Part shown: positions 40,335 to 64,000 of the stretch, one piece after another | How the letters are laid out: every line of letters begins with the position of its first letter | How positions within the stretch are numbered: position 1 is the stretch's first letter | DNA from: Mucilaginibacter saanensis | GTDB taxonomy: Bacteria; Bacteroidota; Bacteroidia; Sphingobacteriales; Sphingobacteriaceae | NCBI RefSeq assembly: GCF_014200575.1 | Contig: NZ_JACHBZ010000009.1 | Coordinates: 56,144 to 120,143 of the forward strand | Length of the DNA stretch: 64,000 nucleotides | Direction: 5' to 3' | Notes under the pieces: generated by a model | The model's input: only the letters and a program-made list of their open reading frames with translations | The model's database searches: none | What the model was told of the DNA's origin: nothing | Translations under genes and position numbers: made by a program

Positions 40335-41420
40335 CTATTTTTTGGGATACAGGATCAGATAAGTACTTCCGTAGAATGATGAATAAACACCTTCTTTTTC
40401 GCTCCTTATCCTAAGTCCTATATTGATTGTTTTAGCGGGGATCATTTTATATAAGTTCTTCGATATAGCATAGTTTGCCTGTTCAAGAGGTAGATTACTT
40501 GTTAACCTGCTATCGTCCCAAACTACATTATCTGTTAAGTTGATTAAATCAGCAATGGTGTGGCTATTCGTACTTCCTGAAAATAATTTTGCTGTAAAAA
40601 CAACGGAATCAAGCCCGGTGTAATTATTTTTATTAAAATTGACTACGGCTAAACCGGATACGCCTTCAACGCTCGTTGTGCTTCCTGAAAAATCTAATGG
40701 TATTCTAACCTCATTTAATGGTGCATTATTACAAATGTATTCTGTAGCGGTTATCTCACTGTCATCAAGAATGCCATTTTTATTAATATCAATACCTGTA
40801 TTGAAATTATAGCCCCCATAAACACAGTTAGGACCTGCGGGTTCAGTTTTAACAGCTATTAAATAATTAAGACCGTTGTTCCCATTACATATATAAGTAG
40901 TGTTTTGTACTTCATCGGTATCTAAAATGCCGTTTTTGTTTTTGTCGGTACCGGTATTAACCTTATATCCACCGTTTGCGCAATGAGTTCCTGCGGGTTC
41001 AGCAACCAGAGCTACTAATGAATTACTACCGGTTAATCCGTTACACACAAATTGTGTGTTTTGAATTTCATTGGCATCAAGTACATTATTATTATTTATA
41101 TCAATACCGGTATTGATCTTATAGCCCCCTGTAGCACAATTTGGTCCTGCGGGCTCGGGAACAAGTGCGGCAAGCGAATTATTGCCGTTTATACCGTTAC
41201 AAATATATTTTGTGGTTTGAATTTCGGTTGATTCAAGAATGTTATTGTTGTTCATGTCAATACCACTAACAATCTTATACCCACCTGCCGGACAATTAGT
41301 TCCTGCTGATTCACTTATTAAATCTATTAGTGATTTCTTGCCTTCCGGCCCTTCTTTTTTGCCACATTTTAACAAGAAAATAGAAAGTATCAATATACCT
41401 ATGAGATGGGATTTTTTCAT
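40335..41420 (-). CDS. Lipoprotein with four DUF7151-like calcium-loop repeats
   Basis: A 361-residue lipoprotein (signal ends FLLKC, lipid Cys about residue 19). Residues about 35-230 hold four repeats of about 46 residues, each with GGYK..GxDxNxNxxLDxxEI and a closing CNG; each repeat has two Cys and an EF-hand-like acidic loop (for example DINNNNVLDANE). This fits the repeats known as DUF7151. The last 130 residues form a separate beta-rich domain. Calcium binding is inferred from the loops; the surface location follows from the lipobox. It is a single gene with no linked transporter. Confidence 0.8.
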   Translation of the reverse strand: MKKSHLIGILILSIFLLKCGKKEGPEGKKSLIDLISESAGTNCPAGGYKIVSGIDMNNNNILESTEIQTTKYICNGINGNNSLAALVPEPAGPNCATGGYKINTGIDINNNNVLDANEIQNTQFVCNGLTGSNSLVALVAEPAGTHCANGGYKVNTGTDKNKNGILDTDEVQNTTYICNGNNGLNYLIAVKTEPAGPNCVYGGYNFNTGIDINKNGILDDSEITATEYICNNAPLNEVRIPLDFSGSTTSVEGVSGLAVVNFNKNNYTGLDSVVFTAKLFSGSTNSHTIADLINLTDNVVWDDSRLTSNLPLEQANYAISKNLYKMIPAKTINIGLRIRSEKEGVYSSFYGSTYLILYPKK

Positions 41421-59892: not shown

Positions 59893-61002
59893 TTGACAGA
59901 TAAAGTAATTATTACCCACGTTGATATATACCGCTTTAGTATACCCATGGAGCCGTTTACCATTGCTACGGGGACTATGGATCATGCGCAGAATGTTTTT
60001 ATCAGAATACATACCGATGCCGGTTTTTATGGTGTTGGCGAATGTTCTGCCTTTCCCGTAATTACTGGCGAAACCCAGGATACCTGTTTAATAATGGCCC
60101 GGGAGTTTGCCAGGCTTTTGAGAGGGCAGGATGCATTAGATATTCCTGCACGCATGCAGCAGCTGCATAGTTTTACCGCGGGGAACACTACTATTAAAAG
60201 TGCCTTTGATATTGCATTGTTTGATATTGCCGCCAAAAATGCCGATCTGCCGTTATACCGGTTTTTAGGCGGCGAAAAGCGCGAGGTTGAATCTGATATT
60301 ACTATAGGTATAGCCGGGCCTCATACCATGGCGTTAAAGGCGCTTGATTTTAAGGCCTCGGGGGCAAATATGCTAAAGGTAAAATTAGGTAAAAATGCCA
60401 TTGAAGATGTGGAATGTATTAAACAGATCAGAGAAGCCGTTGGCGGTGGCTTAAAGATCAGGATTGATGCTAACCAGGGCTGGAGCTTTGGAGATGCCGT
60501 TTTTGCCTTGCAGGCATTAGATCAGTACGATATTGAGTTTTGTGAACAACCGATGCGTACCTGGTATGATGACCGCCTGCCGCGGCTGATGGAGCTTTCG
60601 CCGGTAAAAATTATGGCCGACGAAAGCGTGTATAATCATCATGATGCCCGTAAGCAGATCAATAGCGGCTCATGTCATTACATCAATATCAAAATGGCTA
60701 AATCCGGCGGAATACTGGAAGCCAAAAGGATACATGACGAAGCTGCCGCCAAAGGCATAGCCTGTATGATGGGTGGCATGCTGGAAAGCCGTATAGCCCT
60801 GAGTGCCAAATTGCATTTCGTGTATGCCAGCCCCAATATAAAGTTTTATGATATGGACACCTGCATGTTAGGCCATTTGCAGGACCCATGCACAGGAGGT
60901 GTAACTTATGACGGTTACAAACTGAATATCGCTGATGAGCCAGGCATAGGCGCTGATGCCGATGAGACTTTTTTAGCTAATTGTGAACATTATACAGTTT
61001 AA
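59893..61002 (+). CDS. Dipeptide epimerase (L-Ala-D/L-Glu epimerase type), enolase superfamily
   Basis: A 369-residue enzyme of the muconate-lactonizing subgroup. Lys162 and Lys164 in LKVKLG form the K-x-K base, IDANQGW and EFCEQPM supply metal-binding Asp and Glu, and KIMADESV follows with the third ligand. The final DMD(T) motif is typical of dipeptide epimerases, which recycle peptidoglycan peptides. The start is TTG 59893: there is no in-frame ATG before residue 19, and the predicted N-terminus aligns with the family's usual start. Exact dipeptide is not certain. Confidence 0.88.
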   Translation: MTDKVIITHVDIYRFSIPMEPFTIATGTMDHAQNVFIRIHTDAGFYGVGECSAFPVITGETQDTCLIMAREFARLLRGQDALDIPARMQQLHSFTAGNTTIKSAFDIALFDIAAKNADLPLYRFLGGEKREVESDITIGIAGPHTMALKALDFKASGANMLKVKLGKNAIEDVECIKQIREAVGGGLKIRIDANQGWSFGDAVFALQALDQYDIEFCEQPMRTWYDDRLPRLMELSPVKIMADESVYNHHDARKQINSGSCHYINIKMAKSGGILEAKRIHDEAAAKGIACMMGGMLESRIALSAKLHFVYASPNIKFYDMDTCMLGHLQDPCTGGVTYDGYKLNIADEPGIGADADETFLANCEHYTV

Positions 61003-61413: not shown

Positions 61414-62784
61414 TTAAACGCTCAGTTCTGCAAAATATTTATGGAACAAGGGGATAGTTTCAATGCCTTTGTAGTAATTGAATATATCATATTTTTCATT
61501 AGGCGAGTGTAGCGCATCGCTGTCCAGGCCAAAACCCATTAGTACAGTTTTAAGGCCAAGCTCGGCTTCAAACAGCGCAACTATCGGTATGCTGCCACCG
61601 CCACGCGTAGGTATAGGTTCTTTGCCAAATGATTCGGCAATAGCTTTTTGTGCTGCGCGGTAGGCTACGCTATCGGTCGGGGTTACTGCCGGCTCGCCGC
61701 CATGGTGCGGGGTTACCTTTACTTTAACATTAGCGGGTGCTATACTTAAAAAGTGATTGGTAAACAACTCTGTTATTTTATCAGATGTTTGGTTAGGCAC
61801 CAGGCGCATGGATATTTTAGCATGAGCCTTTGATGGCAATACGGTTTTGGCGCCTTCGCCGGTATAACCGCCCCAAATGCCGTTTACCTCAAGGGTAGGG
61901 CGGGTTCCGGTACGTTCAAAGGTGGTATAACCCTTTTCGCCCCACAGTTCGGCAACATCAAGGTCTTTTTTATATTCATCCTCATTATAAGGAGCGTTGT
62001 TAAGTGCAGTGCGCTCGGCAGGTGTTAGCTCAATAACATCGTTATAAAAACCGGGGATAGCAATATGATTATTTTCGTCATGCAGTGATGCTATCATTTT
62101 GGCCAGTATGGTAGCCGGGTTAGCAACTGCGCCACCGTAAACGCCAGAGTGCAGGTCGCGGTTAGGGCCGGTCACTTCAACCTCCAGGTAGGATAATCCG
62201 CGCAAGCCGGTTTCTAATGACGGGTGTTCCATGCTGATCATGGAGGTGTCTGATATCAGCACAACATCAGCCTTTAGTCTTTCTTTATTTTGCTTTACAA
62301 AAATACCCAGGTTTGATGATCCTACCTCTTCCTCGCCTTCAATCATAAATTTAATATTGCAAGGCAGGGTGCCGGTTTGCATCATCAGCTCAAATGCTTT
62401 TACATGCATATAAAACTGACCCTTGTCATCGCAAGCTCCGCGGGCATAAATTTTACCGTCGCGTATAGTTGGTTCAAAAGGAGGGGTTTTCCATAACTCC
62501 AGCGGGTCTGCCGGTTGTACATCATAATGGCCGTAAACAAGTACGGTTGGTTTTGAAGCGTCGATGATCTTTTCGCCGTAAACTATAGGATAGCCGGCAG
62601 TGGGGCAAACTTCAACTTTATCAGCGCCTGCCTCACGTAATTTTTGGGCTACGTAATCGGCAGTTTTTAATACCTCGGGTTTGTATTTAGGGTCGGCGCT
62701 AACTGAAGGGAAACGCAAAAGTTCAAACAATTCATCAAGTAAACGTTGTTTGTTGTCGTTTACATACTGTTTTATGTGCTGCAT
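61414..62784 (-). CDS. M20 family dipeptidase
   Basis: A 456-residue zinc peptidase of the M20A/CNDP type that splits dipeptides. Metal-binding YGHYDVQPAD, the bridging Asp in ACDDKGQF, and the general-base pair in EGEEEVGS are intact, and the lid domain spans about 200-370. ATG 62784 is preferred to a TTG at 62796. A -7 box TATATTTG (62811-62804) lies 20 bases upstream on the minus strand. Confidence 0.93.
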   Translation of the reverse strand: MQHIKQYVNDNKQRLLDELFELLRFPSVSADPKYKPEVLKTADYVAQKLREAGADKVEVCPTAGYPIVYGEKIIDASKPTVLVYGHYDVQPADPLELWKTPPFEPTIRDGKIYARGACDDKGQFYMHVKAFELMMQTGTLPCNIKFMIEGEEEVGSSNLGIFVKQNKERLKADVVLISDTSMISMEHPSLETGLRGLSYLEVEVTGPNRDLHSGVYGGAVANPATILAKMIASLHDENNHIAIPGFYNDVIELTPAERTALNNAPYNEDEYKKDLDVAELWGEKGYTTFERTGTRPTLEVNGIWGGYTGEGAKTVLPSKAHAKISMRLVPNQTSDKITELFTNHFLSIAPANVKVKVTPHHGGEPAVTPTDSVAYRAAQKAIAESFGKEPIPTRGGGSIPIVALFEAELGLKTVLMGFGLDSDALHSPNEKYDIFNYYKGIETIPLFHKYFAELSV

Positions 62785-62803
62785 AGTTATTATCAATTTG
62801 CAG

Positions 62804-63043: not shown

Positions 63044-63955
63044 TTATGCTGTAAAGTCAGCAGTAGCTAAATCTCTTTTCGGACCAGATATTGTTGCATA
63101 ATCAGCAGTAGCTAAATCTCTTTTCGGGCCAGATACTGTTGCGTAATCAGCAGTGGCTAAATCTCTTTTCGGACCAGATACTGTTGCATAATCAGCAGTA
63201 GCTAAATCTCTTTTCGGGCCAGATACTGTTGCATAATCAGCAGTGGCTAAATCTCTTTTCGGACCAGATACTGTTGCATAATCAGCAGTAGCTAAATCTC
63301 TTTTTGGACCAGATACTGAGGCGTAGTCAGCAGTAGCTAAATCTCTTTTTGGGCCAGATACTGTTGCATAATCAGCAGTAGCTAAATCTCTTTTTGGGCC
63401 AGATACTGTTGCGTAATCAGCAGTAGCTAAATCTCTTTTCGGGCCAGATACTGTTGCATAATCGGCAGTAGCCAAATCTCTTTTGGGGCCAGATACTGTT
63501 GCATAATCAGCAGTAGCTAAATCTCTTTTCGGGCCAGATATTGTTGCATAATCAGCAGTAGCTAAATCTCTTTTCGGGCCAGATGCTGTTGCATAATCAG
63601 CAGTGGCTAAATCTCTTTTAGGACCAGATACTGTCGCGTAGTCAGCAGTAGCTAAATCTCTTTTAGGACCAGATACTGTCGCGTAGTCAGCAGTAGCTAA
63701 ATCTCTTTTTGGGCCAGATACTGTTGCATAATCGGCAGTAGCTAAATCTCTTTTCGGGCCAGATACTGTTGCATAATCAGCAGTAGCTAAATCTCTTTTC
63801 GGACCAGATACTGTTGCATAATCAGCAGTAGCTAAATCTCTTTTCGGGCCAGATACTGTTGCATAATCAGCAGTAGCTAAATCTCTTTTCGGGCCAGATA
63901 TTGTTGCATAATCAGCAGTAGCTAAATCTCTTTTCGGGCCAGATACTTGTTGCAT
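63044..63955 (-). CDS. Tandem 15-residue repeat protein, 3' part (20 units)
   Basis: Twenty copies of VSGPKRDLATADYAT (first residue V, I or once A; one unit ends YAS; the last reads DFTA and stop). Of the six frames only this one stays open through the array: every other frame meets a stop in each 45-base unit. Variation between units is nearly all in third codon positions. The open frame begins at ATG 63955, but the repeats continue upstream in another frame owing to one extra base at 63947-63948, so the native start is probably beyond the window. No family recognised; no signal peptide visible. Net charge per unit is about zero. Confidence 0.6.
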   Translation of the reverse strand: MQQVSGPKRDLATADYATISGPKRDLATADYATVSGPKRDLATADYATVSGPKRDLATADYATVSGPKRDLATADYATVSGPKRDLATADYATVSGPKRDLATADYATVSGPKRDLATADYATASGPKRDLATADYATISGPKRDLATADYATVSGPKRDLATADYATVSGPKRDLATADYATVSGPKRDLATADYATVSGPKRDLATADYASVSGPKRDLATADYATVSGPKRDLATADYATVSGPKRDLATADYATVSGPKRDLATADYATVSGPKRDLATADYATISGPKRDLATADFTA

Positions 63956-64000
63956 AATCAGCAGTAGCTAAATCTCTTTTCGGGCCAGATACTGTTGCAT
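63044..64000. repeat. 45-bp tandem repeat array, at least 21 units
   Basis: Period 45 without interruption from about 63050 to the window end. Unit sequences differ at a few positions, mainly the CGGGCC/CGGACC/TGGGCC/AGGACC site and GTAGC/GTGGC. One copy (about 63941-63950) has an extra T, and this shifts the frame. The right end of the array is not in the window. Confidence 0.9.

Follow-up and report, generated by a model that had tools for sequence, protein, structure and literature searches.

The window, a stretch of 64,000 nucleotides of the Mucilaginibacter saanensis genome, ends inside a tandem repeat. A single 45-bp array occupies positions 63057-64000, with 21.0 copies and 93% matches by TRF on the window. 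The motif KRDLATAD occurs 21 times in the window, and 20 of these copies share one frame on the minus strand, where they form 20 consecutive in-frame 15-residue units (VSGPKRDLATADYAT). The final unit reads ...ADFTA, followed by a stop at 63044. The original prediction of at least 20 near-identical 15-residue repeats on the minus strand is thereby confirmed, with one further, frame-shifted copy. The principal features of the locus are listed here; L009 denotes the stretch G000:C9:116000-135000 of the same genome.

63044..64000, minus strand: C-terminal part of a precursor with many copies, comprising 20 units of 15 residues in frame, built around KRDLATAD, and one more copy out of frame at the edge of the window
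61414..62796, minus strand: gene for an M20-family dipeptidase, flanking the peptide cluster at its distal end
L009:5759-7201, divergent to the peptide ORFs: TPR-membrane-HisKA protein of 480 aa (479 from its ATG)

The 21st copy, at the window edge, lies in a different frame, with an extra T at about 63947 where the copy spacing is 46 instead of the usual 45. This extra T is found about 54 bp from an assembly gap and could reflect either misassembly or a genuine frameshift; we left it unaltered in the sequence used. The gap itself, 98 N at L009:4145-4242, falls inside the array and begins directly past the window end. The ORF called from 63955 does not include the true start, and the gene runs on through the gap. 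Beyond it are five further KRDLATAD copies and then a signal-like N-terminus (MKKSSILAALALSTFLSSFANTSGVV...). Extension to the right, as the original prediction had proposed, thus located the start of the array gene at L009:4572, which encodes MKKSSILAALALSTFLSSFANTSGVVKSNPKTDKTTAK and then the repeats. Across the whole genome, the pattern K-R-D-L-A-x-A-D occurs 28 times, all confined to this locus: 21 to the left of the gap, 5 to the right and 2 in upstream single-copy ORFs. With 21 copies on one side of the gap and 5 on the other, the array has at least 26 copies. Elsewhere in the window, at 41020-41306, a 156-bp repeat occurs in two imperfect copies.

Codon changes among the 24 complete units (20 left and 4 right of the gap, which cuts the fifth right-hand unit) were synonymous in 36 of 45 cases, against 28% expected (p = 9e-13). 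Within KRDLATAD itself, 12 of 12 codon changes were synonymous, with amino-acid changes confined to the spacer. Synonymous and non-synonymous changes in the cores of three named relatives numbered 28 and 0, 44 and 0, and 17 and 0, counted with unit-picking patterns that fixed several residues; in a check for omitted units, each GPK in four arrays preceded a picked unit and none was missed. These substitution patterns indicate that the array is real and coding. A non-coding minisatellite, the alternative that had been kept in view, is ruled out by the synonymous bias, the signal-like N-terminus and the relatives described below.

Upstream of the array, on the same strand, are three single-copy ORFs of 51, 48 and 52 aa with signal-like starts, ending in ...GFKKDLGSAD, ...TAKRDLASAD and ...GLKRDLASAD, respectively. 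We used a hydropathy rule to call signal peptides, supplemented in this locus by inspection; we found no lipobox in any own-locus precursor. About 590 bp separate the peptide genes from the divergent sensor gene. This interval contains a promoter-like TTTG-N17-21-TAnnTTTG site (L009:5629-5661), which we take to be of the Bacteroidota promoter consensus type; the first peptide ORF starts about 460 bases further on. Among 73 loci, the pattern was found facing the peptides in 22, against 1.25 expected, and facing the sensor in 1, against 2.3 expected. The stretch between the site and the first peptide ORF (L009:5168-5628) is long and has no assigned ORF. A structured RNA leader was considered and set aside, since Rfam gave a single match, at chance level and on other sequence. 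At the other end of the cluster, a mandelate-racemase-family (dipeptide-epimerase-like) gene at 59893-61002 of the window and the M20 gene adjoin the peptides in many species, other genera included. The single-copy peptides share the core of the 15-residue unit, which is also linked to the gene of a TPR sensor; neither relation is visible in the window alone.

The sensor has a signal-like N-terminus, a TPR region (TPR_12, E 2.1e-22 by Pfam), a hydrophobic segment near residues 341-366 between the TPRs and HisKA, and a HisKA domain that is marginal by Pfam (27.0 bits against a cut-off of 26.9). Pfam matched no ATPase domain in the protein and no domain C-terminal of HisKA. All 45 orthologues compared have histidine at the phosphoacceptor position, His422. 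Sensor lengths are alike across all 70 loci read (67 distinct genomes), the relatives spanning 475-517 aa with the furthest start. From this layout, the TPR domain is predicted to lie outside the inner membrane, in the periplasm. By sequence, the sensor profile matched RapI, RapJ, RapF, NprR and HOP TPR2A among many TPR proteins, with the best scores going to engineered TPR proteins and LGN; such matches are generic.

Among 15 window and flank proteins, Pfam recognised no RiPP-modifying enzyme, peptide exporter, sorting domain or immunity gene. The array had been proposed to encode either a multi-core precursor or a repetitive exported protein. What survives of this is a precursor carrying many copies of one peptide, whose signal-like N-terminus lies to the right of the window; a modified RiPP with an adjacent modifying enzyme or exporter, and a surface protein with a sorting domain, are unsupported because no such domains occur among the 15 neighbours scanned. 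A multi-core RiPP whose modifying enzymes are encoded elsewhere in the genome would share the repeated cores, and two short relatives weakly match an MNIO-RiPP family. However, these sub-threshold matches fall chiefly in the signal/lipobox region (residues 2-35), with NCBIfam scores of about half the curated cut-off or less, and the core has no Cys; with no linked modifying enzyme among the proteins scanned, as a RiPP precursor would be expected to have, we regard this explanation as highly improbable.

A scan of named genomes with the TPR-HisKA protein as query gave five loci, all in Mucilaginibacter. In four of them, an array is accompanied by three or four single-copy peptides; in the fifth there are two peptides ending in LATAD. 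Of the 149 genomes in the genus, 138 have a TPR-HisKA orthologue, as do 116 of the 117 good ones; the TPR protein occurs in 60 of 121 genomes of the family, representing 11 of its 22 genera. Upstream DNA was taken from 60 Mucilaginibacter genomes, which with our own locus makes 61 loci. A motif regex found at least one precursor in 57 of these and 279 precursors in total, 117 of them multi-copy, 94 with a lipobox-like pattern and 193 ending exactly at the motif, whose position is thus not always C-terminal. Arrays of 20-30 copies are present in many species, and the single-copy peptides of relatives that carry the core at their end measure about 45-60 aa. The four loci without a regex match are L102, which reaches a contig end, L124, where peptides with another ending are visible, and L126 and L127, in which no peptide ORFs were found upstream of the sensor despite full upstream sequence. 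The TPR-HisKA gene is diverged in L126 and L127, and the L127 genome has three matches to it.

Twenty loci were read in other genera, 16 of which match the regex. Two of the remainder are cut by contig ends (L208, L210) and two have peptides with other endings (L214, L217). Endings typical of these genera are KKDMGGWD, KGNLGTWD and KKDTTQWD, and a lipobox-like pattern, often followed by KKE, is found in 46 of 53 precursors. In five loci (L116, L123, L209, L216, L218), the stretch selected by the regex was not the ending recognised by eye. Peptide and sensor genes are divergent neighbours in our own genome and in most loci fetched. Second TPR proteins in another genus (L261-L265) appear by eye to end like complete kinases and have no recognisable peptide neighbours, with a LytTR-like regulator near two of them (L264, L265); they were not counted as the same system. 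Searched against 5.8 billion proteins, an own-locus single-copy peptide had one match, 100% identical and nameless, and every match of a Pedobacter-type peptide in the protein database was nameless or called 'hypothetical protein'. The peptides thus look largely unannotated.

Dominant cores occur in 28 versions across 49 Mucilaginibacter loci, with K at position 1 in 47 of the 49; the motif table is partly shaped by the regex at positions 4, 5, 7 and 8, position 1 being unaffected. We also assembled a motif-blind set, comprising signal-like ORFs of 40-100 aa starting MK or MR within 3 kb, whatever their ends. On the peptide strand, this gave 253 ORFs in 53 of 61 loci, 188 of which end in Asp, and on the opposite strand 6 ORFs with none ending in Asp (whole stretches, slightly looser start rule). 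Over the last 8 residues, ORF pairs whose bodies are dissimilar differed by 2.78 mismatches within loci (471 pairs) versus 5.21 between loci (29,656 pairs), the lowest of 300 shuffles being 4.58. Control stretches gave 6.90 within versus 7.12 between loci for the preceding 8 residues and 7.33 versus 7.09 for residues 21-28. Each species therefore keeps one similar core across otherwise different precursors. These figures supersede a motif-filtered comparison (1.89 versus 3.48), which was biased in that the motifs had been pre-filtered towards the locus consensus. In several loci (L089, L092, L101, L128, L070, L071, among which the pattern is frequent), the precursor furthest from the sensor has a variant core, such as APKSDIATAD versus KKDVGTAD in the others, or GPKADLGTAD versus KRDLGNAD in the array. 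Such a distal variant is possibly a second signal or an antagonist.

A peptide-profile search of the 121 family genomes returned, among the matches listed, at least 84 full-length rows in 35 genomes, and all 35 also have the TPR gene. Of those full-length rows, again among the matches listed, 75 of 84 lie at most 4 kb from the TPR gene and nine elsewhere. Eight of the nine are beside M20 near a contig end, and the TPR gene of the same genomes is near a contig end too, so the locus was probably broken by assembly; the ninth is on G124:C1. Shorter matches, mostly to the signal region and occurring with and without the TPR gene, were left uncounted. In 20 stretches from genomes lacking the TPR gene (one of 2.4 kb), no peptide cluster was found beside uvrD, a weak comparison given that the place is not syntenic.

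Three neighbouring gene types were considered as parts of the system and rejected. M20 was matched beside most clusters, but the stretch read had no match for 12 peptide-bearing loci (one cut by a contig end), and the start of the protein has no signal peptide by inspection. A role as processing enzyme is thus unsupported, and the M20 dipeptidase probably owes its place to synteny and does not belong to the system. The XRE and DUF neighbours are located elsewhere in the genome G101, and searches of other genera gave no match to them next to the TPR gene, so these too were set aside; the peptides still lie beside the TPR gene in G101 and in those other genera. This bears on the reading of the array as a repetitive structural or adhesive exported protein, with the linkage to the TPR gene a relic of old synteny. 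Such a protein could equally have a signal-like N-terminus and a long regular array, and XRE, UvrD and M20 are likewise syntenic in most loci of the genus. It accounts poorly for single-copy peptides of about 45-60 aa ending in the same core, and for a peptide-TPR link that persists without M20 at one side and where XRE and DUF are elsewhere (G101). We judge this reading improbable.

To relate core to sensor, we compared their divergence by partial Mantel tests with neighbouring genes as controls. Core and TPR-domain divergence correlated (Pearson) at 0.587 with DUF+XRE as control (41 loci), 0.604 with M20 (35 loci) and 0.575 with DUF+XRE+UvrD (24 loci), each with p 0.002, the floor of 499 permutations; by ranks (Spearman), the values were 0.487, 0.557 and 0.513. 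For HisKA and the same controls in the same order, Pearson correlations were 0.255, 0.285 and 0.051 (p 0.004, 0.014 and 0.346), and rank correlations 0.139, 0.331 and 0.057 (p 0.048, 0.010 and 0.370). With UvrD alone as control (26 loci), the correlations were 0.585 for TPR and 0.056 for HisKA. Permutation inside 12 distance clusters gave p 0.0005 for TPR and 0.22 for HisKA; inside 4 to 10 clusters, HisKA remains significant as well. Core divergence thus appears to track the TPR domain beyond the control genes, and HisKA less, by a class of test that handles phylogeny poorly. A scan of columns favoured inner helix positions (p 0.0055). Because we assigned the helix registers by eye, and some of the top-ranking columns belong to HisKA and the membrane segment, we claim no single residue.

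Our preferred explanation, held with modest confidence, is that the neighbouring TPR sensor, predicted to be periplasmic, has a peptide ligand whose precursors are encoded by the array and the single-copy ORFs. A ligand and its receptor would fit the secreted-type precursors, the single core of each species, the way this core moves with the TPR domain, and the constant neighbourhood. The array would supply many copies of a secreted signalling peptide whose core is K-R-D-L-A-T-A-D, and the three single-copy precursors beside it would contribute the close variants at their ends; some of the relatives' precursors look like lipoproteins. The peptide genes would be read from the promoter-like site, which faces away from the divergent TPR-membrane-HisKA gene. 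The precursors would be exported by Sec, and octapeptides released by proteolysis would be bound in the periplasmic TPR domain. The signal may then pass via the paired HisKA helices, which carry the conserved histidine. Because this HisKA has no ATPase, a partner kinase or a protein contact would be needed; the output could involve a partner kinase, a phosphate store or a protein contact.

The same parts could instead serve as sentinels, with periplasmic or lipid-anchored precursors reporting the cell's own export, lipoprotein sorting or proteolysis and the TPR domain sensing their build-up, analogous to NlpE-Cpx and RcsF-Rcs. The lipobox-like patterns (94 of 279 Mucilaginibacter precursors, 46 of 53 in other genera) and a TPR domain predicted outside the inner membrane are consistent with this. 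A sentinel, however, has no obvious need for arrays of 20-30 copies, as many species have, nor for a core that varies from species to species yet matches among the precursors of a locus, and our own locus lacks a lipobox; we consider it unlikely. Multi-copy precursors and species-specific cores would also suit antimicrobial or interference peptides of a bacteriocin-like kind, with the TPR protein as regulator or immunity partner. Against this stand the 15 neighbours scanned, among which no exporter or immunity gene was recognised, the short and (by inspection) charged cores, the near-universal occurrence of the TPR gene among good genomes of the genus, and the peptides in most loci read, which leave it very improbable. 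Self or kin sensing, as by a pheromone, is the likeliest use of a ligand-receptor pair, given the species-specific core and the high copy number. We favour it over the envelope sentinel, though sequence alone does not separate the two. In its full form, the proposal of a secreted pheromone native to Bacteroidota is tentative: octapeptides specific to each species would be released from precursors of three kinds (single-copy, lipidated and multi-copy) and sensed in the periplasm by a TPR receptor whose HisKA output lacks a kinase, with ligand and receptor co-evolving.

The arrangement recalls the RRNPP quorum-sensing systems of Firmicutes (Rap-Phr, NprR, PlcR-PapR, PrgX), where small Sec-type propeptides are likewise encoded beside the gene of a 250-500 aa TPR receptor. 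According to the portion of the source available, a survey of Firmicutes and viruses defined such peptide-receptor pairs by five criteria (PMC10075063). The 48-, 51- and 52-aa ORFs fall within the 10-100 aa of an RRNPP propeptide, whereas the array precursor exceeds 100 aa. The signal-like N-termini, called by hydropathy and inspection, would correspond to Sec secretion, which in RRNPP systems is followed by exopeptidase maturation. At 480 aa as called, the sensor has the size of a TPR-bearing RRNPP receptor, and the genes are direct, divergent neighbours, their spacing of about 590 bp lying above the 400 bp given as default in the part of that source available. The RRNPP receptor, however, is intracellular and binds imported peptide, while here it is predicted to be periplasmic. 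The HisKA domain, the hydrophobic segment after the TPRs, the occurrence in Bacteroidota, the array precursors and the several precursors per receptor are further differences. On these predictions, the locus largely agrees with the RRNPP criteria; a receptor predicted outside the cytoplasm breaks membership, and we do not claim it.

The available part of one source describes FimS of Porphyromonas gingivalis as a sensor histidine kinase whose signal is stated to be unknown (PMC11053733). FimS likewise joins a periplasmic TPR domain to a histidine-kinase output, and NCBIfam FimS is the best match of our sensor, though weak (62 bits against a cut-off of 600); a sensor histidine kinase of the FimS type would have HisKA plus HATPase, and in our sensor Pfam matched HisKA only. 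The precursor layout resembles that of systems of the yeast alpha-factor type, in which one secreted precursor carries many identical copies of a species-specific peptide with spacers. Here, the setting is bacterial, the receptor is unrelated and no processing enzyme was identified.

In the parts of the literature available, Gram-positive bacteria account for most of the peptide signalling described (PMC10075063), and one paper names Mucilaginibacter once, for a different radical-SAM cluster (PMC9062424). The titles and abstract openings listed from the open-licence literature yielded no earlier description of such a peptide/TPR-sensor system. That related bacteria have versions of the peptide of their own beside a probable receptor gene suggests an undescribed peptide-signalling system, with RRNPP-like logic in Bacteroidota and a membrane receptor. 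The locus supplies a candidate ligand, a candidate receptor and natural specificity variants in more than 70 loci, and the question is thus testable with short synthetic peptides. If the proposal is true, a peptide language similar to that of RRNPP systems would exist in Gram-negative bacteria, operating outside the inner membrane, and FimS and other TPR sensors in the phylum would become candidate peptide receptors.
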